Shown here: positions 69 to 64,000 of the stretch, in pieces
Numbering within the stretch: position 1 is the stretch's first letter
How the letters are laid out: each line of letters opens with the position of its first letter
NCBI RefSeq assembly: GCF_032854445.1
Contig: NC_088300.1
Coordinates: 27,325,608 to 27,389,607, forward strand
Length of the DNA: 64,000 nucleotides
Origin: Liolophura sinensis
Taxonomy: Eukaryota > Mollusca > Polyplacophora > Chitonida > Chitonidae
Direction of reading: 5' to 3'
The notes under the pieces: model-generated
What the model was told of the DNA's origin: nothing
The model's database searches: none
The model's input: the letters and a program-made list of their open reading frames with translations, nothing else
Program-made: the position numbers and the translations under genes

Positions 69-3000
69 CTGAAATGTGAAAGATGAGCGAGAAATTTAGA
101 AACAAAATAGCAGCAACTGATGAGAGTCAAATAAGACATTAATAACAAGAAATCAGTAGGGTACTGAGGCAACTACAACCAATGATGTGAGGCGATACAT
201 GATTCAATATTTTGGTCTCCTTTAAGCCATTTTCAACAATTAAACTATGTTTCTGGGGTTTTTTTAACTGAAAAATATCTAATTGCCCAACATGTTACAT
301 CGTTTGTTGGAGTACTCTCCTAAAAGAGTAGGTTTGGTCTGGTTTGGATTAAACAACTTCCATGCCTGTTAATGATTCATTCTGAGCTTGTTTGTATGAA
401 TTCAGCCACACTTTTCAAATCGGGCCTCCCTGGCTCAGTCGGTTAGCGCGCTAGCGCAGCGTAATGACCCAGAAGCCTCTCACCAATGCGGTCGCTGTGA
501 GTTCAAGTCCAGCTCATGCTGGCTTCCTCTCCGGCCGTAAGTGGGAAGGTCTGCCAGCAACCTGCAGATGGTCGTGGGTTTCCCCCGGGCTGTGCCCGGT
601 TTCCACCCACCATAATGCTGGCCGCCGTCGTATGAGTGAAATATTCTTGAGTACGGCGTAAAACACCAATCAAAAAAAAAAAAAAAAAAAAAAAAAAACT
701 GTATGTAGTTCTACAACCTTTGTGCATGTTTGCAAGATGTTACTCAAGCATATTCTGAAGGCAATATTCTGTGACTAATAAAATTATGCTTTTTGTGGAG
801 CCCTGAAACCGGTCAATCCAACCAATGTAGTTTCCAAAATAAAAATAAAAATAGGCATAAATTGTACAGAAAGTTTCTCTTTCATATGCGAAAAGTTGGA
901 GGAATTAGGGTATGACGATATAAGTACATGTCAAATATAAACTATTTGACACTACAATGACTACTCTAACCAGAAAAATTTCATACTGCTAATGTTTTTT
1001 TTTTAAAGTGTTAAAGCAATTACACCTTATTGTTTGCCATGGCATGACTTGCTTAAATTGTAATGGAAAATGGTCTATTTGTCAAATATAACAGGCATGA
1101 CCAGGCTGTATCCCATGGCCTAATTAGCTTACCTTATAATGAAGAATGGACTGTTCCTCACAAATGGCAGTGATGACCTGGTTGACCTCTTCTGACATCT
1201 CCCTCAGAAAATAGTTTGCATACTGGACACTGGTAGTACCTATGGAGTACCGCTGGCAAGTACATGGAACAATGATGAAAATATCTTGTTTCATGGTTAA
1301 AGCTTTAACAAGGTACACTTCAAATAAATGTGTCAAAGTATCAGGACCAAGATCATCTTTTCACATATTATACTACACTTTGTCCGTGACAGAGTAACTC
1401 ATTTTCCCTCATTATGAGCTTTCTGTCGACATACAAAGGAATTCTGAGGTGAAATGTAGTTGTTAAGGCTTGACTAACCTCTTCTGGACACAAGTGATGT
1501 GTAGCATTCATGAAGTGGGCACAGATCAAAGGGAAGACAATAGTATATCGATGTTGTGCTGGAAACTCCATACACTGTTTAAACTGGTGCTCAAAATGCT
1601 GCGTATAAAAACTGAAACAGACAACAGCCAGAACAAATTACAGAGTTATAATCCCTGTCTTATTAATGTCTTATTTCTGGTATTGAAGCAAAATTACAAA
1701 CAAAACAAGCAGTATGTATCTGTTAATGACCTTTAACCATGTACATAAGAGTATAAACCTTGTACTGCTGATTGGGAGTTACACACATATACACCACATA
1801 ATATGCAGTAGAAAAACAACAACTGCCACATAATATGCATTATTCATTCATAATATCTCGCAGGCAGAAATTTAACATTATGTCCATGCAAGAGTGATGG
1901 AAGCAGGTAAATGCAGCTTAAACATCAGCTCACCAGTATATGGAGAGGTCTGCGGTTTCGTTGAGCATTTCGTCCAGGTAGTCCACCATTTTGGTGTGAA
2001 AGACGATAGTGTTGAGATGTTTAGCCAGATCCACATGGTCTTTTAGTATCAAACCTGACTTACTGACACTAGAGTAAGCCTGCAACAGCAAATGACAAAT
2101 GTATGTTATAATTAACATACCAATCAACATTAATACATACAAACCTATAATGTCTAAATCATACTCTGAGGTACTGAACCAAAAACTTCAATACTCCATA
2201 AAATAATGGCATGGGGAACGCTGCCATAAAGCCTGCTTCTCACCACACCCAGAAAGGGCAAGCAGTTTTCAAAACTTTGAACAGCTTTTATGACTTTTTT
2301 TTAGATTGATGCAGCCCAAAAAAGGCAGGAACGATAGACATTTCACTTCAGTAACTGTAATCTGCAATTTAAGATCTGAGAGTCATACCTGCAATCTGAA
2401 CCAGTCCAACCTCAGCCCCCGGAAATCAAATAATTCATTCTCCTCCACTGAAACAGGCAATAGTCAGCTTAGGAGTAATGTATGCAAAAAAACCCCCCAA
2501 AAAACAAGAAAAAAAAAACAACAAACCTGAAATACTACTATACCTGAAAAACAAATGCACTGCATGCTACAATAAGCTGAAGATGACAAACACAAAGTGA
2601 TTCAATGAGAACAATAATTCAGCTTTTACACAACAGTAAAAATGCAAAAAAACAAAGTATTCTCTTTATTACAGAACGTACCTTGCTTGACAGTCAAAGC
2701 TGCAATAGTGTTATAGACTGAGGACAATATCACAGACTCATCTTCTGGGCACATGGCCATTTTCTGAAACAAAAAGACCACCAACTGTTAATTGCAATTT
2801 CTTTTCAAACATTGCAAGCAAATGACAGTATCTTGAAAAATACCATACTATTTGAATTAAACAGTTTTCGGGATTTGAAAAAGTTTTCAAGATAACTTTT
2901 GTACACAGACCAGCTGCAGTGCTTTCAACAAAGTTTCACATCGTCAATAAAAATATAAGCACATTTAAAGTTAAAATTAAAGGTAAGGATTTCTTCAAAT

Positions 3001-9000: not shown

Positions 9001-12000
9001 GTACATGTACAACACTGATTCAAAGAACTCTCCTATACAATGCAGATGTACTAGGCTACTGAAGCTGTTTGATGCACAATGATATTGGATATTTGTCCAT
9101 ACATACATTTCATACATTTGTAACATTTTACAATGACACTGAAATAACTGGTTATCAACTGACACAATGCAGCTAGCCTATTCACCCCACACACCTACCC
9201 TTGAATGTGGAATGAACTCTTCTGCAAGTTTTTTCATTGGTGGATCATAATCCAAGATCATCTGTCCAAGTCTTGGGAAAGACGGATCACTGTAAACATA
9301 GAAAAACAATTCTGAATGTGAGATCTGTGGGTGAGACATGGATACGTCATGATTTTACACAAGTCGGTCAATTTCATCGGCTGCCTTAATCTGTTCAAGT
9401 TCTGATCTTCTTACAGCTGACCAGCCCTTGAACAACAAGGCTGGAGGCTTAACTCCATTTCTTTCTGGCAAAGGCTGTGACGTTATGTCAGACAGTTTTC
9501 CAGGTACTTGATTAACGATAGCAGTTTAACCTGGACTGTATGGTGTTTTACACCCATAAACCTGACAGACTGGCAAAGTCATAAATGGAATTATACACAA
9601 TTCAAATAAGTATATTCTGAAACATTGTTCTGTGTAGACTGATAAAATTATACTTTTTGTGAAGCCCTGAAATTGGCTAATCCATCCAATGTAATTTTGT
9701 CACAAATTGGACTGACAGTTTAATCTTTCACAGGCAAAACAGTTCGAGGAACTAGGGTAAATGAATTTCCTCCATGAAATGTACATACTGTATTTCATCT
9801 AAAGTTTAGCCTTTTTCAAGTGGCACAATTTGCTTGATTCTGATTATATCATTCGCTTTTTAGGGCCACTAAAGATTTTTGTTTGTCAGAAAAACTTAAT
9901 ACTGGCATGAAAAGTATCATTTTAAGGTCTTTATGTGCTACTGAAAGTACAGGTTTACACATTGATTTTACTTACAGTCCAAATGTAGTAAATCATGCCC
10001 TGACAAGACTTAGACCGATCGTACTCTCAGAATGTTCAAATGATACCTGTCTTGATGAGAATTCTATCAAAGATCCCATTACCTTGTGCTGTGAAGGAAC
10101 TCATGTGCTGCATTATACAGCCCCAGGACAGCCTTACGATCCTCCACTTTGGACACTAAAATCATTATACTGGTGTACGTGGACACCAGATCCAAGTACT
10201 GCTTCGTCAGGTCAAAGTTCAAAATCTGCAATGAAAGATTTGAAACTATTTTAAACACAAAACCTGTATAAATGTTGATCTTATTTTCACAAAGTATGGA
10301 AAATGGTGAAAGTTCAAATTGTTATATTCCGTAATGCATACAATGGTCATACATCACACAGCCTTTTGCATTAGTAAATTTTATTTTCTGACATTACAGC
10401 AATTTACTAAGAGATGAACCCATAAAGTAAAGAAAATTTATACATTTATATTTCATCAAAATATGACATACAATGTTGAGATGAACTTGGCAAGCATCCA
10501 TTGTAGTCAACAGATCTGTCACATGATCCTGGAAAAAAAAAAACATTAGCATTAATATAAAACAAAACGCACATGTAAATGCGGTGTTGTGCACAACACT
10601 ACTACAAAAAATGTGCCCAGAAGAACTGTTGTATATTAGCATATCACATTGTTATTATATTCATTTATTTATTTGATTTATGTTTTATGCCGTGCTCAAG
10701 AATATTTCACTTATACGACAGTGGCCAGCATTATGGTGGGAGGAAACCGGGTGGAAAACCACAGCCATTCCCAGGTTGCTGACAGACCTTCCCACATACG
10801 GCCAGAGAGGAAGCCAGCATGAGCTCACAGCTACCGCATTGGTGAGAGACTCCTGGGTCATTACGCTGCGCTATCGCGCTAACTAACTGAGCCACAGAGG
10901 CCCACCATTGTTATTATAACTTTAATCTAAAATAACATTACATACAACACAGTCACTCGCACAAAAAATTTATTTTATTACATGTGAAAGCTTCATTATT
11001 TATTATTTATTTAAACCAGCCATTTCTCAGTAATATATTACATGTATGTAATTACATCATGATTTGGACAACTAGATTAAATTTTTGTATTAATACACTA
11101 CCTTAAAATCCATGATATCCACAAATGTATAGTAATACAGTGATAATGATTTGACCACTTCATTCTTGAAGTTGTTGATAGAAGACATCTGCAAAGCACA
11201 GCACAATACAAATGTTTTTTAATAATTACCACTGACATTTGCCAGATTTACATAACTATGCAATGAGAGCACACATCAAAATAAAGCAGAATTTTAATTT
11301 TAGTGAAATAATGTACAAATGTTTACGCTATTAAAGTCTTAAGTGTGACCAGTTAGATGCTAGATTACAATAGTCCAAAATCCATTACCCCACTTGTTCC
11401 TCTTGCATCTAACACAGGGAACTTCTTCACAATAGTCCTCATTGAGCTTTCAAGAGTTTTCTCGGACAAGAACGGAGGTTTGTTCTCAGGGTTTCCAAGC
11501 ATCTAAACAACAGAACAAATATCAATTCCAATTAGACAGGTGCATGGCAGCCACTACAATCAGTAGCAATAACAAAGTGAAAACTTATTATGTATGAAGA
11601 ATTAGATATTTCTAAGAATCCAATCCTACCATGCCTATCTGTAGCGGGATTCACATCCCAATTTATTTACAAATGCTGTACAGTGTAAAATTATAGGGTT
11701 TTCTTCTTTGAGACGAAAATCTACTACAAGTATCTGATCGTTGGCTAATGCCATTGAGTAAAAAATAAGTCATACACACACTTTATTATGATTTTGCATA
11801 TTAATCATGTTCTAAAATGTGTGCTATTGCATGACATGAAAATTTCAAGCATTTTTCCTTCAAGTAAATGTATCTTCGTAGAGTCAGCCTTGAAATGCTG
11901 ATGAAAATATGCAATACATTGGACAATATGGCTGAATGTGTGCCAGTGTTGTCACTTAACAAGCAAGCTGCATGTATATGTGTGTACTCCCTTATTTCAT

Positions 12001-23500: not shown

Positions 23501-24476
23501 TCATTTCACCTTCTGCATCGGAACTCAATAAATCATTTTTTGGCCAGAAACTGACAAAAAACGCGCCATTATCATACTCTAATGATGATGAAAAACGAAA
23601 ACTGTTCCATCGCAGAAGGGGGCCCACAGCAGTTCTCCAAAATACTGAGCCAAGCGAATACACAAGAAATCAACTGTCATTTACCTAAAAGGCAATCATC
23701 CTAAAAGTTTTCTGATACATTTTGTTAGTGCTCACATGAACGATGTTACTGGAATGGTAACAAGAAACCTAATGGGTCGCAAAACAGAACACATCTGAAT
23801 AATGGTTTATATATACATGTATGTCACTATTGGTAAGACAAAATAAGTCTGTTACACTACAAAAACACCACAGAATACAAATCAGACCGACAGCTATTTA
23901 CAGGTACTTTATATACATAGGGTGTGAGAACACCTGTTACATAAAGGATAACATGTGTGTGTTTAACTGGTTCAGTAACTGTATGGTCCCCCTCCCACGC
24001 ACGCATCAATATTCTCTGTTCTTCCTTCTGCACGTATAATAGTTCTGAGGTTTCAAACGTCAATGCTTTATTTTGATATCTGACTGACCTGCTAGAGTTT
24101 GGAATCAGTATATAATAAAGCAAGCCTTTTGCCCTGTTGAATTAGCTTGGTACTAACCACAAAAATTAAAGACTGCCATATAGACAAGTTAACTAGAGCC
24201 ATGTTCAGCACATGTACGTATGTATGTTTCATGTAAATTACATGGCTCATGTTCTTTTCACTGCCTAAAAAATCTTCTCAATTTTGAAGAATATCAGTGA
24301 TGTCAATTTGTGCAACAAAACTTACAGGGTAGGGCGTATCTTCCACGGAATAGCACCGTCCTTGTCGATTTCTTTAAAGCATATGCATTGAAGGAGATGA
24401 CAGACTGGTTACTTAGTTGATTAACATCACGCCATACTCACACCACTACAGCTGCCGAGGCGTCCGATGACACCAT
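17545..24476 (-). CDS. FDPS: Farnesyl pyrophosphate synthase, complete, nine exons
   Basis: FDPS condenses DMAPP with two IPP to make farnesyl diphosphate, the precursor of sterols, dolichol, ubiquinone and prenyl groups. Exons, all with AG/GT borders: 24442-24476, 23140-23293, 22497-22637, 21977-22057, 21556-21678, 20869-21033, 19255-19332, 18657-18791 and 17545-17745. They encode 370 residues. Visible motifs: HGKKNRG (IPP site, residues 71-77), first aspartate-rich motif DDIMD (119-123) followed by TRRGQ, KT in [13 protein letters not shown] (217-218), second aspartate-rich motif DDYLD (260-264), [12 protein letters not shown], and a basic C-terminus KRQK like the vertebrate KRRK. Y114-F115, at -5 and -4 before DDIMD, are bulky, as in C15-producing animal FPPS. 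The start at 24476 adds a short Ala/Val stretch; a downstream ATG at 23283 (MGEPDVKK) is an alternative. No clear mitochondrial presequence was seen. The gene appears intact. Confidence 0.96.
18108..18450 (-). repeat. tRNA-derived SINE, family 2, full-length
   Basis: Complete copy in an FDPS intron. On the minus strand: tRNA-like head (cacagttagtggagcgtcc), body, then the 3' tail, visible on the plus strand as gtgcttggggtttaacgtag followed by caatttttcagtcatatg, and a GAGT repeat. It is the reference copy for the family. Confidence 0.88.
18657..18791 (-). CDS. FDPS: FDPS exon with second aspartate-rich motif
   Basis: The 45 residues start exactly with DDYLD at the splice junction and continue through [20 protein letters not shown]. 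The aspartates bind Mg2+ and the IPP diphosphate in the family. A splice site immediately before DDYLD makes this motif easy to miss in gene models. Confidence 0.93.
18953..19198 (-). repeat. tRNA-derived SINE, family 1, diverged
   Basis: Tail at left (tatttatttgattggtgttt), body with cttcccacg and agcatgagctggacttgaac, head at right (gctaaccaaagta). Older than other copies, judging by small indels. Lies in the FDPS intron next to exon 19255-19332, about 57 bases from its donor. Confidence 0.82.
19816..19842. repeat. Adjacent poly-A/poly-G tract in FDPS intron
   Basis: Twelve A followed by about 13 G. The G run could form a G-quadruplex or triplex and is prone to length errors in assemblies. 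A C-rich run (about nine C) lies in the same intron near 20590. Confidence 0.75.
21977..22057 (-). CDS. FDPS: FDPS exon with first aspartate-rich motif
   Basis: Twenty-seven residues beginning [13 protein letters not shown] and ending in CWYKK. The first three aspartate positions bind the Mg2+ of the allylic diphosphate. Tyr-Phe at -5/-4 corresponds to the paired aromatic residues known to limit chain length in animal FPPS. Phase 0 at both ends. Confidence 0.94.
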
Positions 24477-24600
24477 TTACAGTACAGGCTCGTTGATTAG
24501 CCAACTTAGTTTCTTCTTTTGAAATTCAACCAATGTATGTGATCCTTACATTTGCAGGTCTACCCGATTTAATATCCCGAGGGGTGACAAGGGTTAGTAT
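24477..24600 (-). promoter_or_regulatory. Putative FDPS promoter with inverted CCAAT and SRE-like site
   Basis: Upstream of the FDPS start codon, CCAAT lies at 24530-24534 on the plus strand, so it reads ATTGG in gene sense. A GTCACCCCTC string (minus strand, about 24579-24588) resembles the sterol regulatory element ATCACCCCAC. Vertebrate FDPS is activated by SREBP with NF-Y at an inverted CCAAT box. The motifs are seen; their function is inferred and chance occurrence is possible. Confidence 0.3.
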
Positions 24601-25570
24601 TCCCGCGCTTTTCAAATTTGGACAAAATGCACTCTACACGCTGATCACAAAAATTTCTATTTTGGCCAAACTTAATCATAGGTCTCAGCTAAAATACTTT
24701 AGGTCTAATGAGCGTTATTTTCGGGAAATGCCACTGAACGAGTTCGTGACGAAAGTTAATGTATCTTCTTGAACAGTTTAATATGAAATATCAAGATTTA
24801 AAACTAAGTTTTAGTCGTTATCAAGTACCTCATGGTTGCACGTTATCGCTCAAATTCTGCTAATAGAATTTCAGAGCTGCCACAGAACATATTTAATTTA
24901 GTGAGAAAACGAACGAGTAAAAATAAAACACGTAATTGAATTTTCAGGGGAGATAAATCGTGGCTAAAAACTGATTCAGACGAAATTGGAAGGGAGGTAA
25001 GTCGTAAGTATCTGAATTTGTAGCTGTGCACATTGATCATTTACTCACGTTAGTGATATTTAAGGTTCAAATAACCTTTGCCGCAAATCAGAATATGACT
25101 TTGCTAGCATTTGACCATGTAATGAGATTGCAGAACTGAAGCGACAGTCAGACTGAGATTGATTTGTATAATGCTTTGAAGGCCTAATTAACATTACGGG
25201 CGTCAAGAGATGCTCAGTTTTCGTATGATAGTAAGTGATACGTACACATCTGTATTGTATTGTAGACCCGACAAGGCATGGCCGTCAAACCCAGTGCATC
25301 GTTACAAAATTTCAGACTGTAACCAAAAAATGATGTTCCCTGCCAATATGCGAGTGCGTGGATTTGATGAAAACTGTCAATTATAGGATCGGTTATGGTA
25401 TTGTAATTTGTAGGATAGCAATCGCTATGCAAGTTTATACGGTAGTTAAGTATTCCAATTAAAGCAGTTATTGTTCATTAATCCTTTAACTTTTTCATTA
25501 GTTTGATGTCCGTACTGCATATAGGTTATGTTGTATGTCATTGCTCTGTCAGGATGTCATTCACAGTGAC

Positions 25571-25852
25571 AAAGCCATTGAGTGGCTCAGTAGGTTAGCA
25601 CGCTATCGCTGCGTAATGACCCAGAAGTCTCTCACCAATGCGGTTGCTGTGAGTTCAAGTCCAGTTCATGCTGGCTTCCTCTCCGGCTGTTAGTGGGAAG
25701 GCCTGCCTGCGGATGGTCGTGGGATTCCCCCAGGCACTGCCCGGTTTCCTCCCACCATAATGCTGGCTGCCGTTTTATAAGTGAAATATTCTTGAGTACA
25801 GCATAAAACATCAATCAAATAAATAAATAAATAAATAAATGAAAGCCATTGA
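25571..25852 (+). repeat. tRNA-derived SINE, family 1, with 11-bp target-site duplication
   Basis: SINE body at 25581-25841, with A-box-like TGGCTCAGTAGGTT, B-box-like GAGTTCAAGTCC, tail and (AAAT)n. It is flanked by the direct repeat AAAGCCATTGA at 25571-25581 and 25842-25852. The duplication marks a retrotransposition event and fixes the element ends. Confidence 0.92.
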
Positions 25853-26328
25853 TACAGAATTAATAACTGAATGACAATTCCATGAACACAACTGTTTTAA
25901 GTTTTTTTCTGCATGCATATATTTTACTTGCATAGTTGCAGCATTAACATTTACTGCCTTGCTGAAATGTCATTTTTATGACTTGCATAGGAACCCATTT
26001 CATTTTTTAGTCAAAAGTTGTCACTGAACATGACGTTATCATTATAAGTACATTGAAAAATGAAAAATTTTCCTCCCCAGTGTTCCTAAAAATTTGGACG
26101 GGAAATTAGGTGTCAGTAGCCATACATTGTTTTGTGGTAGTTGCTAGATAGTATATGTATCTTGCACTGTTGCATAAGCTCATCAGTGCCTTGGCTATCA
26201 CAGTAAAATGACATCTTTAGCCGTGTTATAAACTTGATGAGAGCTCTCACCATGTCTTGCAAAAACCCGAGTGAACTCACAAGATTCTACTTATTCAAGC
26301 ATGGCCCAAGATGTCTACATGAGAAAAT

Positions 26329-26597
26329 CTTCCTGTTACTATTTATTGATTTATTTGATTGATAATTAGCGCCATACTCAAGAATATTTCACTTATACGA
26401 CGGCGGCCAGCATTATTGTGGGAGAAAACCGGGCAGAGCTCGGGGGAAACCCACGACCATCCGCAGGTTGCTGCCAGACTTTCCCACATACAGCTGGACT
26501 TGAACTCACATCGACCACATTAGTGAGAAGCTCCTGGGTCATCACACTGCGCTAGTGCGCTAACCAACAGAGCCACGAAGGCCCCCGCTTCCTGTTA
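26329..26597 (-). repeat. tRNA-derived SINE, family 1, with 10-bp target-site duplication
   Basis: Reverse copy (about 26339-26587) with AT-rich tail at left and head (gctaaccaacagagccac) at right. CTTCCTGTTA flanks it at 26329-26338 and 26588-26597. Most of the body is present, with a short internal gap after the cttcccacata segment. Confidence 0.9.
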
Positions 26598-27102
26598 TGC
26601 CCTGTGTGTATTAACATTTTATGATGTCAAAAGCCATTAATACCAGCACATTCTTGCCCCTTTCTACTGTTTGTCACTGTCATAACACCTCAACAGGACT
26701 TACAGTTAATAATTTTGAAAATTGCCCCTTTGTCATATTAGTATATCCCAAAGGGATTATGCTGTCTCAGTATCCTTCTGTGCATCCAGAATCACAATAA
26801 AACTGAAAGCACTTTGGTAAAGATTTCATATTTGGTGTGTACATTCATATTGAGATGAACTAAGTAATGCATGAAGTAAATTTCTGGTTTCCATCCAACT
26901 GATTAGAAGAAGCATTTCACACTGGTTCATATTGAGGGAGCTGCTGAACTTTCTTAACGAAAATGGGGCTATTCGGATGAAATTTATTGTTTCCATGGTA
27001 ACATGAAATCCTGTTTCTGTGCACACAATGCAAGTTATACTGATGTACACGTACATGTATATTTCAAATTTGGTATTCATATGGGGACTTTCATATGAAG
27101 TC

Positions 27103-27224
27103 CTTTCCAATTTGCCCGGTTTCTTCCCACCATAATGCTGGCTGCCATCATGTAAGAAAAATATTCTTGAGTACGGCAGAAATCAGCAGTCAAAAAAAGA
27201 AATAAATAAATACTTTCCAATTTG
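27103..27224 (+). repeat. 5'-truncated family-1 SINE with 12-bp target-site duplication
   Basis: Only the 3' ~98 bp is present (gcccggtttcttcccaccat through the tail and AAATA repeat). It is flanked by CTTTCCAATTTG at 27103-27114 and 27213-27224. Truncation at the 5' end with an intact duplication is what incomplete reverse transcription by a LINE enzyme produces. Confidence 0.9.
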
Positions 27225-27815
27225 AACTGGGACTGATTTTTAGGTTTCTACACATGTATAACTACCTCAGCCAACTGGAAATAGTTTTTAGGACTTGAAA
27301 CTTGTCGTTTTCAGTTGATTGTTAAAGAAACCTACATGAAATTTTTTTTCACCTGACTGTTTTGCATTTAACAAATTTAACAGTCATGTAAGCAGTTGTG
27401 TGTGTCACAATCCTTTCTCTTTCCTATTTATTTTACCATTTTATTTGTCAACTGCAAAACAAGAGCCTAACGGTTCCTGTTTACAAAATATTTGCCCTTT
27501 GACAGTATTACTATGCTCCTCACATATTTTCAGGGCATATGTACATGATGGCACACCATGATAGTATATGTATCAGTTAACCCGAGGAATTTATCTGTTA
27601 CTACAAGCTGCAAAATTCCTGTTGGGCTTAGAGACCATCACTCTTCCATACATATCTGTTAAGTTTGAATATAGGCTTTTTTTTGTTGTACCTGGGAATA
27701 ACTGTCAAAAGCAAGCTATTGTCTATTGTCTTGGGATGAAAGATGCAGTTTTAACTTGTACATACATGTATGTTTATCACAGTGTCAGACATAGATATTA
27801 CATATGTTTATAATA

Positions 27816-27960
27816 GTTAGAGCGTCAGTCTCAAGGTCTGGAGACACGTGGTCAAACCTACGTTGCATCATACTGAAAACATCAAAAATGATTCTTGTTG
27901 CTGCCTTGCTTGGCATTTAGCACTGAGAGGTTAGAGCAAGGCAAGATGACTGGAATTTCC
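27816..27960 (+). repeat. tRNA-derived SINE head, 3' truncated
   Basis: tRNA-like head (gttagagcgtcagtctcaag, then B-box-like ggtcaaacct) followed by ttgttgctgccttgcttggc and gcactgagaggttagagcaa, matching the element at 29981. No 3' tail was seen. Confidence 0.6.
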
Positions 27961-29980
27961 CTTTTGAAAATTTTTCTGTTACCTCTGTAAAAAATACTGA
28001 TTGTAAAATCACTGATCAATGATTTGGGTAATATGGAGTATATGTAACTTGTAATATAAAGCTTATGGAATGGTCTATTCTTTTTCAGAAAAGTGACAAT
28101 CTTAATACATGTAAAGTATGTCTTTTGGAATTAATATGAGACAAAGTAGGCTAAATGGGTGAATTATTCTGTTTTATGTCATGTCTTTTTTTTTAATGGA
28201 GAATTCTCTCGCAGTTAAACTTGAAGGAAGGGTTCAAGGATCAAATGGGTGCTTATCATGGTTAAGCTAAATTTCCAGGAAGTTTCTTTAAGAGTTAAGT
28301 AATCTGCTTCTCTTTTTTTTCTCCTACTAAATGTCTTTGGTATGAGTTTGAGGAAATTCATTCACATTGACATGTGAATCAAAAGAAAAAAGTTCACTAT
28401 TGGGGTTCAGTAGTTTAGTTTTGCTGAATCTGTCTAATTTTGAATTTTAGATTTAAATGAAATGAATGATTGTTCCAGTCATGCATGTTCATGTATTAAG
28501 AATGGAAATGTTATCACTCTTTCTTGTACGTGTTCTTTTCATGTGGTTTCAAAACCATGTCTTTGTAATTAAAGGACTAATATTTGCCTGAATACATGAA
28601 TAATGACTAGCTGCTAATGTGTTGCTCAGAAAAACATTAGAGTACCAGTATTAAGAAAATATGTGTTCTGGATTTCTGTGTAAAGAAAGCGACTAATAAC
28701 AATGATTAGCTTTTGTATGAATAAAAACTTCCTGATTGTAGTTTATCATCCATGGTGGAACAGAATTACAGGCAACGGGAAAAACTTCACAGTCTGATTA
28801 GCACATTTGTCCTGGAAGAAGCTTTTTTATCATTTTTTAAATGTTTTTACAGATAATAATCTATGATATAAATCAAGTGTATCTCGTCATAGATCTTATG
28901 TTGGTTGTACCGTTTTTCTTTGGTTTTACGTCTGCAGTGGTGTACACTATAAGTTGGCAAGCAAGTAAAGGAGGAAGTTATGTTCTGACAAGAATGTTGG
29001 TAGATGAGAGTTTTGATGGTGCAAAGTTATTCTAGCTGGATGATTTCCAGACCTCATTAGACTGTGCCAAGTAATTTATCTTCCTTTTTCTGCGTTGGTG
29101 AGTAAAATTTACCTCCTTAATAGTTCCTTTTTCTACTGGCAGACATTTTCCCATTAAATCTTGTCTTTGACCAAGCCAAAGTTTTGTGTGCTTCTTTTTT
29201 TTTTTTTTTTCTTGGATAGCTGTGTTCTGGCGCAACACATTTTCTTGGGTTATTTTGGTCTTTTGTTAAGGACTGTCAGTTGTGATAAGGCTGTGTACAA
29301 TAACATGCAAGTTTCTTCAGCAAGACTTATGGCTTTAAAGGTGTACTTTGTGGCAGTAAGTAATTGAGTGATTATATACTGTTATTATGTTAGGCGCCTA
29401 TAGCTGTTTTTTTCTTCCTTGTTTTACTGAAATGAGAATAGGTTCTATATGGGCCAGTTGTGTTCAATAAGCCTATATCTGATTACAATTCATACGGGGG
29501 AAAAAAAAACATTGCTTTCTTAATTCTTTTTCTCAAGAATTCTCATTCCAATAACCAAATCACCTGAAACTGTCCTGTTATGACTGAATCACACAGTTGT
29601 GTTTCTCTCTTCGTTGATAGCTCCCTGTGCATGCATGACCTGATGTACATAGATGTATGTATCTACATGTAACTGTATTTATGCAAGTGAAAAAAAATGC
29701 CGGTTTCCAGAATATAGTTATGTCGCTTGATTTATATAGGTATTTCGTTTCACCCGGCTATTTTCTACTATAAAGGCGATGTCCTGTGCGTTTAAATGTT
29801 TCCAGCTTCTCAGTAACTGGCTAACCAAATGCTGATTTTACAATTTTTCTGTTCAGCTATGCAGGGCTTACATTATCTTTTTGAGCAATAGGCTACCCTG
29901 GAATAGTAGTTGGATGGATGTACCTGACAGATAATGAAATGAAGTAAATTGGGACTATTGTCAGAGTATGAAGGGACTGC

Positions 29981-30286
29981 TTCGATGGCCGAATGGTTAG
30001 AGCGCCTCAAAGTTGGATGACCCAGGATCAAGTCCGAATATGGTCATATCAAACACTTTAAATTTGTACTTGTTGCTGCCTCACTTGGCACTTGGCACTA
30101 AGAGCTTCATGCAAGGAAACTGGACAGGTTGGCATGGTGTCTTCTGCCTGATACTTCAGCATGATACTCGCCCTGCCTCAAAAAGTCACAGTATATGTAC
30201 ACACACCTAATGACTCCTCGTCATGACTGAAAAATTGTTAAGTACGACGTTAAACCCAAAGCATTCATTCATTCAAAGTACTAAGG
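29981..30286 (+). repeat. tRNA-derived SINE with alternative head and family-2 tail
   Basis: Head gatggccgaatggttagagc is Ser/Leu-tRNA-like, with B-box-like ggatcaagtcc; body gttgctgcctcacttggcac; tail tgactgaaaaattgttaagt, then acgacgttaaaccc and (CATT)n. The tail is the same as in the 18108 element, but head and body differ. Confidence 0.85.
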
Positions 30287-31332
30287 TGGCTGATCAGTTT
30301 TTTTTACAAAAGTAACAGGCTACTTCCTTGTATTTTTTTCAACCTAATGCACAACAAATATGTCAAATGTCTGAAACTGAACGCAGAAGTGCACTCCATT
30401 TGATACAAACAGCATTTGGTGAATGTTGTCAAAACCCTCATGTTATAGTGGTGACATGATGCTATGCAATGTATGTGTAGCCCCCGTGTAGGTAAAAAGC
30501 TCTGTTAACTTCTTATGCGCTCTAGACATAATTTGGGAAAGATTCCTCCAAAATGCAGTTAAATATGTGAGATGCCTACTGAAGTAAGCTGCTGACTGAA
30601 ATATTGAAATGTGAATGTGTGTGTAAAGATGAGCTGGTTTGTCATGATATACTGAAAGATCCAGAAAACTCCGACTTTATAGTTCAAACTACACATTACA
30701 AGCTGCATATTAAAACTAGGCCATATTTGTGGGAAAATACAGATATACACATGTATATGTAACAGTTTTGAAATGGAGAGAGAAAAATAAATCTGAAATA
30801 TCTCAGTGCAGTATTTTTACATCTAGGGCCAACTGTTTTAAATTCATTTGAAGTGCCTGCAGTGTAAATGGATTCCAGAATGGAGTACTTTGTTGTATTG
30901 TTTTTTGTACAGAGAAACCTTGCATCTCTTTAACATGCTAGCAAATGCACATGTTAAATCATTTGTTTGTCGTGGCGTAGAGTTTTTTTTTATACCTGAG
31001 GTTGTCTTATTTGATACATGCACATCTTCTCATTATTTGCATCCATCATCATATAACATTGCATCATACATCATAGGCTTTTATCTGTTATCTTCTTTTA
31101 CTTTATGCTACAAGTGGAGATTTAGAGTATTGCCAAGAAAACCCATATCAGATCATCTGTAGACTATTTGTTGGTTAATGAGTAGAAGATGTACAACAGG
31201 AACTGTGTTTGGCATGGCCTGTTGGATATTTCCGACTTGTGTCTAGGTTACTGCTCCATGTGCAATCCTTATCCAGCAGGCTATTTTCTACTGTGTGCCA
31301 ACTTTATAGCTATAAAGCACCTCTTCTATCAG

Positions 31333-31570
31333 AAACAAGTGAAAACACTCTGGCGCTGCTTCGGTGGTAGCACCACACATGCTGTACAGTCCCGAGAAGA
31401 TGAATGCCAAGCCGACTAGTAATGGTGTTGTTAAGGTGGTGGAAGCGAAGCCTATCCAGGTGGGCATGGTGGTCAATGTGATTGTCCTGCTGGTCTTGCT
31501 GGCTCTCCTGCTCAGCTGTGTCAACTGGTAACGTCATGTCCTCCACCCCCACAGACTTCAAACTTTACAG
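31333..31570 (+). other. Predicted exon containing a microprotein ORF
   Basis: GC-richer island in AT-rich DNA. A plausible acceptor (cacctcttctatcag) ends at 31332 and a strong donor, CAG|gtgagc, follows 31570. The stretch between holds the 43-50 residue ORF described separately. It could be an exon of its own gene or a 5' leader exon of LNX, which is transcribed in the same direction. Prediction only. Confidence 0.4.
31400..31531 (+). CDS. Candidate tail-anchored transmembrane microprotein, 43 residues
   Basis: The ORF starts at ATG 31400 (A at -3; an in-frame ATG at 31379 would add seven residues, MLYSPEK) and ends with TAA at 31529-31531. It encodes a polar N-terminal half (MNAKPTSNGVVKVVEAKP) and one hydrophobic span of about 20 residues (around 21-41, containing VVNVIVLLVLLALLL), ending SCVNW. 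Codons in the span favour CTG, GTG, GTC and CTC, unlike the AT-rich flanks. Topology and the Asn at the start of the hydrophobic span resemble the regulin group of SERCA-regulating micropeptides (phospholamban, sarcolipin), but I do not recognise a specific family. Alternatives are an upstream ORF in the LNX leader or a chance ORF. Confidence 0.4.
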   Translation: MNAKPTSNGVVKVVEAKPIQVGMVVNVIVLLVLLALLLSCVNW

Positions 31571-34276
31571 GTGAGCTGTGGAACTCTCAGGTGATGATAG
31601 CCCTGTCATTGTTCACAGTCTGTGCTACATATTGTTGGCCATAATTTAGCTGTTAAACCACACAGATTAATACACATTATATTCTCTCAATATCATTATT
31701 CATGCATCTGTCTGTGTAAATATGGTTGTAAAGTACATTTATGTCAAGGAATGCAGGAACCTGTATACTAATATACCAGTTTGCTGTTTAGTTTTCAGGC
31801 AGTGAAAGTTATGGATATAGTGAGATTTGAGCTCCTGTCACTTTGGGTCTTTTTTAGTCAAATGCATATTTATTTCTGTTTTTATCTGCTGGTTAATCAG
31901 CCATTAGGGGACATTTTGATACCCTGACCATTTAACTTGGGCTAATGACTTGATAAGGGGCCCAAGTGTAAGACAGCATCAACTTTTTGTGGGATGTAGC
32001 AGCTATTGCAAAGTTTCATTTGTTCATATCCATGTATAGTTTTTAACTCAGAAAATTGTAGCTGTTGGTGAGATTTGAACTCATGACTGCAATTACAATA
32101 GATATGTTTTACATAGATATTTGGCTCATATCATCAGTGTATGTCGATTAGAAGGCATTACGAACAATCATAACTGCAAAAACTGAAAGTATAGGTACAC
32201 CTATGTATGTGTTGGAAATATGTGTTGATGACCCATTTGTTTAGACCTGAATATGTAGAAGATGTTAAACAACAGTGACTGCCTAATGAAAGACACCTGG
32301 CTGCCGTGAGGTTCCTACTCCTCATTAGCTTTTACCGTTTGTGTTTGTAGATCTGTACACAAGTCGACTCCCTTTTCAGTAGGTGCTAAGTAAACATTAC
32401 CTGAGTCAGAAATGTGCAGGATAATTTTGGGGGCACTAGAACATAGAAAATGGCAGGGTTTCTTTGTGGACCGTCTGGCATGGGGAGAACATGTATAGCT
32501 CCAGGTACTAATTTGGGGCTTGTATACAGTGTGCATAGATGAGTGTGGGAATTCGGTGTTAACTGACCTGGCTAACCCCCAGGTATGTCCAGTATAACAG
32601 GAAACATGGACAAGTACACACAACTAGGGTGGAGGCTATTCTAGGTGAAGCAGGGTGAGAGCTGAATTCAGATAAGAGGGAAATTGGGTGAAGCAGTGTG
32701 CTTGTACTGGGCACATGGCTGATATAACTTCCACCTGTTGTGTGCTGTTTTAACTGCAGGCCAGTTCCTCACAGATAAGTATCCTGATAGGAAGCTGGCA
32801 GGTCATTGTACTGGTCTATATGATGTTAGCCCTTCTCCTATTGCAAGTCGGTTTAAGTACATGCTGTAATAAGTAATAAGGAGTATTCAACTTCCACTGA
32901 CAGATGTCGCGAGAAAGTATAAGAGATTACATGAGTGCCTTTCACTTTACTCAGTCGATATTGGCTTGACCATCAGTGTACATACACAAATTAAAATGTT
33001 TAGTCGTTCGCTTGTTTTTGGGAGCACGAAATTATTGTGATGACCTCTAATTGAGACCAGATCTTCACAAAGATGACTTTGCATCATGCAAGTATTCTTA
33101 ATTTAAGACACATGTATGATGGTTTTTTGCATGAACTTCCATGTTTCTTTACAATGATATAGATAGGATCTAAGACATTTCACAACATTAAATCATACTG
33201 GCTAAACGTGACATACTGTACACTCAAAGTTATGAATAGATTTTAATAAAAAATAAACCATTCATCTCCCTTTGATATGTGTCTACAAAGTACTAGCACT
33301 GACTACATAAATTTTTTTTTTTTTTTTTTTTTTTATATTTGAAAGCTTTGGTATAGATTAATTTCAGAGCAAATAATAATAAATAACAAATCCTGTGTGA
33401 AGTGAAAGATCTTCCTGCATTCTGTTACCCCCTACTCACAAAGCCTTGTTCCTGCAGACATTCAGCGGAAACCACATACTGATCCTCAAATGTGCAGATT
33501 TTAATGGAAGCACATAGCTAGCGAATGTTGTAAACTTTAAATGGGATAATAAGTCTACCGGCGCCCTAATGACATCACCACCTTGCATTTTGAGATTGGA
33601 GTGGTTATTATTTAATATAGGCATATCATAAACAAATGCACGGAAAAGTTAACAATTAAGCTGTTGTCAACTGTACTTTATCTTTTAATAATCTAAGCAT
33701 TTTTTTCTTAAACCAGCAAACTTCAATATACGTATGTTCCCATAGAAACTTCAATTGATAAAAAAATTGTTCATAAATTTAATCCTCAGATCGATCAATT
33801 CTTAGGTTACATGTACATGTATATCATTCACTCCTCGAATTAAAAATACATAGGTTAGAATATTACTAATATGCTTTGTTTTATTTCTGTAAATTTATTC
33901 CATTCAGGATCTAGTTGGTATTAATGTGATATTGAGCTCTTTGCTTGATTGTTTCTGGATAAAGACCTGCATTCATGTAGAATGCTGAAGGTATTAAGGA
34001 CGTGTCAGTCATGGATAGTTTCAGTTGGAAACTAACACCAGGTACTCAAAGGGCTATAAATACGGGACAAATTGCTGTAAGCCAAGGAGGCTGAGGGCCA
34101 GTAAATCCAGCTACACACTGATTGTTTTCTCTGTCCCTGATGGGTAGCAGGGTGGGTCTTTTGGAGAAATCAGAGAGATATGGATATGTTTGCTAATTTC
34201 AGTACAGCCAGCTAGGAGCTCTCAGGTTAACGGGGTCTCAGTTTAGGGTATAAGGTGTGAACAGCATTATGAAGCC

Positions 34277-63239: not shown

Positions 63240-63248
63240 ATACCCCTG

Positions 63249-63388
63249 ATGTAGCTGAGGACTTGACGGTAATAGTAACGATGGGCTAGACGATGACCAT
63301 GCTCTTCTACTCTACTAACAGAGGTGTACATATTGCTTCTTTGAGCTTGACTGGTCTGAATGGCTGTGGTGTGAGTTGCTCCCCCTAG
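63249..63388 (+). promoter_or_regulatory. Three upstream ORFs in the LNX 5' leader
   Basis: ATGTAG at 63249-63254 (start immediately followed by stop), ATGGGCTAG at 63281-63289, and a 31-codon uORF at 63293-63388 ending 28 bases before the main ATG. Such arrangements usually reduce or gate translation of the main frame. They apply if the exon begins at 63240 as predicted. Confidence 0.6.
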
Positions 63389-63416
63389 CTATCTTTACCT
63401 CCCCTCCTGCCACCAC

Positions 63417-63721
63417 ATGATGGCACTACAAGCAAGAATGTCCATGAGGCGGCGGATCCGGCGGGAAGCGATCTGCGCAGCCTGTGGACAGTTCCACGAG
63501 CCGGGTGGCACCCACCTGTATGATTACCACACGGCCGTGGACGAGGACCTGATGTGTCAGATCTGTCTACAACCCCTGGTCAACCCCATAGACACCAAGT
63601 GTGGGCACACCTTCTGCTCCCGCTGCCTGCGCAACTACCTCAAGGTGCAGCCAATGTGTACCATCGATAAGTCTGTGATCAACCTGAAGGACTGCCAACA
63701 GTCTAGTATACTCGTCAGAAG
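63417..63721 (+). CDS. LNX: LNX-type E3 ubiquitin ligase, first coding exon (partial)
   Basis: LNX proteins are RING E3 ligases with PDZ domains; vertebrate members bind and ubiquitinate Numb and other membrane-associated partners. The predicted exon spans 63240-63721, bounded by tgtgttttcag and AAG|gtgagt; its coding part starts at ATG 63417, with a better Kozak context at the next ATG, 63420. It encodes 101 codons plus two bases. Residues 20-33 form a first zinc-binding knuckle (CAACGQFHEPGGTH after Ile). The RING at 47-84 has C47-C50, C62-H64, C67-C70 and C81-D84, the C3HC3D pattern of LNX1/2, with LQPLVNPIDTKCGHTFC typical of the family. SSILVRR follows, as in LNX2 (SSILVHK). The PDZ domains lie beyond the right edge. 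LNX1 versus LNX2 cannot be assigned. Confidence 0.92.
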
Positions 63722-64000
63722 GTGAGTGGTCATGTTTTTTTATCAGCTAAAAATAATTTCTGATCGCAGAAGTTGTGATTAGGAAAAGCACCACACATTT
63801 GAACACAGTTGAATGCTTAAGTCTAATGATATGATCTGAATTTAAGAAACTAAAGAAAAATTCTTCCTGTTTCCAGGTTGGTGTTGAGGCACAAGGCATG
63901 CAACAATTAATGAGGTGTCACTTCTATTTGGGGCGAATCTTCTCAGACTGTTTCATAACTTTTTACATGCTCATCCATAATCAAGAAATAGCTTCGCAGT
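63722..64000 (+). other. LNX intron (5' part)
   Basis: Starts with the donor gtgagt and runs to the window edge. AT-rich; nothing else recognisable. Confidence 0.75.

Follow-up and report, generated by a model that had tools for sequence, protein, structure and literature searches.

Small proteins built around a single membrane helix are a recurrent product of short coding sequences, whose peptides generally carry a transmembrane helix and have a median size of about 80 amino acids, and one such family, the protostome single-span microprotein Purriato (Prto), is reported in molluscs, measures 77 amino acids in Drosophila and has its conserved residues in the C-terminal part outside the span (excerpted text of PMC10036370). 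The regulins, comprising phospholamban, sarcolipin, the sarcolambans, myoregulin, endoregulin, another-regulin and DWORF, offer a further comparison. Here we set beside these systems an open reading frame (ORF) in the window, by which we mean the whole 64,000-nucleotide stretch of DNA analysed, from a Liolophura chiton first given as L. japonica and since corrected to L. sinensis (PMC12441733).

If translated, the candidate would fit among the short-coding-sequence peptides as an ordinary member, but one shorter than the median of about 80 amino acids given in the excerpted source, and its layout is shared by many small membrane proteins. Its likeness to Purriato, compared by description and not by sequence, is that of a small single-span protein of protostomes; the conserved C-terminal region outside the span, as the excerpts of PMC10036370 describe it, is absent from the candidate, whose 50-residue form has a single residue beyond the predicted helix, which speaks against membership of that family. 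With the regulins it has in common the size class, one predicted C-terminal span, a short tail and an early polar residue, whereas it differs in having no profile match, no anchored match to phospholamban (the sole regulin aligned) and no Phe in the span. No relatives of the candidate were found in the collections searched. The features of the locus are given below, with splice sites scored by approximate matrices.

31311..31316, + strand: TATAAA, a possible core promoter, with which an upstream exon would be unnecessary
31313..31333, + strand: candidate splice acceptor, weak by the approximate matrices, with the exon running from 31333
31379..31531, + strand: candidate coding sequence, read directly, 50 codons plus TAA, peptide MLYSPEKMNAKPTSNGVVKVVEAKPIQVGMVVNVIVLLVLLALLLSCVNW
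31400..31402, + strand: second in-frame ATG in the context GAGAAG-ATG-A, with a purine at −3, a possible start of a 43-residue form
31460..31525, + strand: hydrophobic span by hydropathy (KD, 19 residues; KD19) and AlphaFold2, predicted helix at residues 28–49 of the 50-residue form
31568..31576, + strand: splice donor CAG/GTGAGC by the approximate matrices, 39 nucleotides after the stop

Direct reading confirmed the ORF of the original prediction, which had described 43 or 50 residues with a hydrophobic span and an SCVNW tail. From 31343 the frame runs open (62 codons from stop to stop) until the TAA at 31529–31531, giving 50 codons from the ATG at 31379 and 43 from that at 31400, and the peptide ends in one strong hydrophobic stretch followed by SCVNW. 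Initiation is favoured by a purine at −3; the first ATG has a C at this position, and the ATG at 31400 is better placed. In the genome searched (609,464,459 bases in 632 contigs) the ORF is single-copy, DNA and protein searches each giving one match, and an origin from a repeat or transposon was rejected on these counts.

The window has 1,220 stop-to-stop ORFs with at least 30 codons, and the KD19 hydropathy of the span, 3.06, is the highest among them; an alignment-free AlphaFold2 model contains a single helix at residues 28–49, with a mean pLDDT of 95 for residues 31–40, 92 for residues 41–50 and 56–58 for the first twenty residues. Both predictions thus agree on the one membrane-spanning helix that is typical of small single-pass microproteins and place it at the C-terminus, while it is from charge only that we infer a cytosolic N-terminus, four Lys and two Glu preceding the span and no charged residue following it. 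A fold search of the PDB with the model returned no match at E ≤ 10, a result that is little informative for a single helix. The base composition of the span matters because membrane proteins are reported, in the excerpted account of PMC7005711, to emerge from T-rich noncoding DNA. T stands at 16 of the 23 second codon positions and G or C at 19 of the 23 third positions, and with T at 23 of 69 positions overall the span is not a T-rich tract.

The island around the ORF, described originally as GC-richer, is so relative to its immediate surroundings, with G+C of 0.48 and 0.51 in two 250-base windows centred on it against 0.32–0.38 in windows just outside; other nearby stretches also reach 0.45–0.47, however, so that it is not unique. 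Length by itself is uninformative, because an ATG ORF of 43 or more codons appeared in 24% of 20,000 dinucleotide shuffles of 31333–31570. An ORF of this length combined with a KD19 hydropathy of at least 2 arose in 0.16% of the shuffles and with a hydropathy of 3 or more in none of the 20,000; the codon score of the candidate was reached alongside the length in 0.35%, and score, length and a hydropathy of 2 or more came together in 0.01%. We also drew a genome sample of 200 kb from 20 other places, containing 976 ATG ORFs of 30–100 amino acids, among which 11 reached the codon score, 24 a hydropathy of 2.2 and two a hydropathy of 3, while none reached the codon score and 2.2 jointly. The nearest miss was a low-complexity ORF of 67 amino acids (locus L037; codon score 6.6, hydropathy 2.99). 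Assuming independence of codon score and hydropathy, about 0.09 joint chance hits would be expected per 64 kb at 2.2, and 0.007 at 3. Separately, a 63-residue ORF (MLVYSSTSSNSPDHISFIIPDLISFVILLNVL...) with a hydropathy of 3.13 and a codon score of 3.5 was seen at 1578–1769 (+) of locus L035 (G000:C7:15000001-15010000), possibly another single-span protein or exon.

Codon use was scored with a model built from 18 kinase loci of this genome, two of the original 20 (L005 and L008) having been dropped owing to in-frame stops, and was compared with a null set of 5,303 open 43-codon stretches from 24001–31200 and 31701–62500 on both strands. The 43 codons of the candidate have a synonymous codon log-odds of 7.83, against a null mean of −2.87 (sd 3.26), and none of the 5,303 stretches reaches this value; with amino-acid use included, the full codon measure of the candidate is reached by 0.7% of them. 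As the stretch is G+C-richer, the raw score flatters the candidate; high scores also come from G+C-rich ORFs that look like repeats and from the antisense frame. Composition was controlled in two ways, by the dinucleotide shuffles of the island and by re-encoding the peptide under the local base composition, the latter reaching the codon score in 0.97% of 20,000 trials (P 0.0097, 43 codons).

The claim that codon use is unlike that of the flanks held on the downstream side, where the mean bias per codon in the same frame is −0.077 (37 codons) against 0.184 in the ORF, and was weakened upstream, where it is 0.054 (37 codons). All six 8-codon blocks of 31379–31522 have a positive codon score; upstream of the first ATG four of five blocks are slightly positive, one at 0.17 per codon, as is the block containing the stop codon. 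The contrast at the ORF edges is graded and soft, and weak at the upstream edge. In the interval from 23.4 to 63.3 kb, the candidate frame, at 9.9, and its antisense frame at 31310–31564, at 10.6, have codon best-segment scores above all others, with fourteen other ORFs, some of them repeat-like, scoring 6.0–8.2. An antisense coding exon at 31310–31564 was rejected: across the 50 codons of the ORF the mean is 0.184 per codon in the sense frame and 0.099 in the antisense frame, minus-strand acceptors scoring over 5 open no exon between 31326 and 32172, and the best nearby minus-strand donors score 5.5 by the approximate matrices.

Codon bias is an uneven marker here, because the FDPS-like exons of the window carry little of it (0.002, 0.105 and −0.048 per codon). 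Four ORFs elsewhere in the window, at 455–661 (+), 10685–10870 (−), 25594–25806 (+) and 26343–26519 (−), have similar peptide text and look, from these translations, like copies of one dispersed repeat that would mimic coding bias. For the candidate, codon bias lends indirect support to a translated ORF of fewer than 100 codons, and we consider 31379–31531 to be probably coding. Together with the composition controls, the hydropathy and the AlphaFold2 helix at residues 28–49, it supports the small membrane protein with one C-terminal span that had been proposed.

Of the two exon borders in the original prediction, the strong donor at 31571 was upheld: by the approximate matrices it heads the + strand donors of the window, with the RING exon donor at 63722 just behind, and is second among 7,862 GT sites on both strands, one other equalling or beating it. 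Given the usual 50–55 nucleotide rule, the gap of 39 nucleotides between stop and donor would let the transcript escape nonsense-mediated decay if this were its last junction. The supposedly plausible acceptor at 31332 is present but mediocre, falling within the top 5% of 7,448 AG sites on both strands, and it has rivals in acceptors whose exons would begin at 31247 and 31280. TATAAA occurs in 52 copies on the + strand of the window, so the copy at 31311 may be chance. An in-frame extension to an upstream coding exon was rejected, since acceptors scoring over 4 open no exon between 31334 and 31400. For the proposed exon we regard the 3′ border as plausible and the 5′ border as uncertain.

We hold it to be about an even prospect that 31379–31531 encodes a small single-pass membrane protein of the chiton, which would have 43 or 50 residues and act through helix contacts. 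The charged N-terminus would stay in the cytosol, the span would enter the ER membrane post-translationally in the tail-anchored style, and at most a few residues would be exposed to the lumen; less certainly, the helix might pack sideways against a larger membrane protein (a transporter, pump, channel or translocon) or self-associate. Action via the helix is the most likely mode, because there is no folded domain outside the membrane, and the charge pattern and this absence of a domain together suggest, as the most likely type, a tail-anchored microprotein working by contacts between its helix and a larger membrane protein. Searches of Pfam, PDB sequences and PDB folds gave no family match naming a function, no paper containing any of four fragments of the peptide was found in the literature searched, and no relatives were found in viral contigs, where none would be expected for a mollusc gene. 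Nothing found points to a pump rather than to some other membrane partner, and non-membership of the regulins would still be compatible with action on a pump. If real, the protein would add a small membrane protein in chitons, a group with few sequenced genomes, and would indicate that codon signal with composition-matched controls can flag such genes in raw sequence; even then it would not alone alter what is known of pump regulation.

Competing accounts of the ORF begin with chance. A fortuitous frame in a G+C-richer noncoding stretch, part of an unrelated RNA exon or of a regulatory element, would be in keeping with the 24% of shuffles of equal length, with the coding-like scores of G+C-rich repeat-like ORFs and of the antisense frame, with the weak codon contrast upstream of the ATG and with the selection of the candidate from the whole window by the original prediction, and membrane proteins are reported from noncoding T-rich DNA in the excerpts of PMC7005711. 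The span, however, is not T-rich and has no equal in 20,000 shuffles, the codon score keeps a P of 0.0097 after composition matching, and the strongest + strand donor lies alongside, so that we judge this account rather unlikely. A different assignment takes the exon as an upstream 5′ exon of LNX, in which the ORF would be a long uORF or a second cistron. Among eight neighbouring ORFs compared with Pfam, three on the minus strand matched Nckap1 (PF09735), one matched polyprenyl synthetase (PF00348), 63375–63722 (+) matched RING families and three had no match; judged by eye, two of the unmatched ORFs resemble additional exons of FDPS, and the RING exon, within 63375–63721 (+), resembles LNX. 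On the strand of the candidate LNX would be the next recognised gene in the downstream direction, donor 31571 calls for a partner site, and acceptor-like sites at 63240, 63322 and 63389, before or within the start of the RING ORF, make a further 5′ exon plausible. Against this stand the distance of 32 kb and the decay that a translated 50-codon uORF would be expected to provoke in a many-intron mRNA; an LNX exon is quite improbable.

Two further readings accept a membrane peptide. One, which we consider highly unlikely, makes it a SERCA-inhibiting micropeptide of the regulin type, its span lying in the pump groove and Asn33 playing the part of phospholamban Asn34. The layouts would agree in a short cytosolic part, one span and a tiny tail, 17 residues follow the Asn here and 18 in phospholamban, and an early polar residue in the span is expected of regulins in the excerpted account of PMC8396278. 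Yet the ORF matched no Pfam family at E ≤ 10 under HMMER filters that drop most weak matches, no PDB sequence matched it, and PF04272 gave nine matches over the whole genome, all below the cut-off and none at the candidate, in a scan that may miss weak ones. The Asn-anchored BLOSUM62 score against phospholamban (sequence identical to PDB 1zll) was 20.0, at chance level beside 15.7 for shuffles (sd 7.7, P 0.28). The span has no Phe, and the basic kinase site motif of phospholamban is absent. On Pfam, PDB sequences, PF04272 and the anchored score alike, the regulin-type, SERCA- or pump-modulating function first suggested for this ORF is unsupported. The best PF04272 match in the genome lies elsewhere, at G000:C2:13607804-13607887 (locus L023), with 20.7 bits against a cut-off of 25 over profile positions 20–47. 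The other reading concerns a second donor-like site and a second hydrophobic tail, with these features:

31457..31465, + strand: second donor-like site CAG/GTGGGC, in phase 0, where the predicted helix begins
32760..32876, + strand: candidate for an alternative terminal coding segment, preceded by an acceptor, a phase-0 hydrophobic tail, ASSSQISILIGSWQVIVLVYMMLALLLLQVGLSTCCNK followed by a stop
32990..32995, + strand: ATTAAA, a possible poly(A) signal of a terminal exon beginning at 32760

By this account, the choice of donor 31460 or 31571, each joined to the acceptor at 32760, would swap two membrane spans on a common cytosolic N-terminus. By the approximate matrices the donor at 31460 is in the top 0.29% of donors and tenth on the + strand, so that both donors are among the ten best of that strand, and the acceptor at 32760 is in the top 1.9%; donor 31460 and acceptor 32760 agree in phase 0. 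The tail comprises 38 hydrophobic residues (KD19 2.5), lies 1.2 kb downstream of the candidate on the same strand and has one match in the genome. Of the 144 acceptors in the window, both strands included, that score the same or better, it is the only one that opens a phase-0 tail with a KD19 of 2.4 or more, although these odds are flattered because the tail was noticed after looking. Against the swap, the codon signal is absent from the tail (−1.26 over 38 codons), and the two spans resemble each other no more than their composition predicts, their likeness score being reached by 48% of span shuffles and 10% of whole-tail shuffles, on which ground exon duplication was also rejected as the origin of the tail. 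Neither the tail nor its joined form matched Pfam, and AATAAA or ATTAAA occurs 106 times on the + strand of the window, so the ATTAAA at 32990 may be chance. We find the swap very doubtful; if true, splicing would re-target a tiny membrane regulator, a compact case of changing a membrane helix and little else. Upstream of the candidate, the stretch at 30230–30295 ends in GTACGACGTTAAACCCAAAGCATTCATTCATTC and presumably has the look of a tail from a molluscan tRNA-derived SINE.
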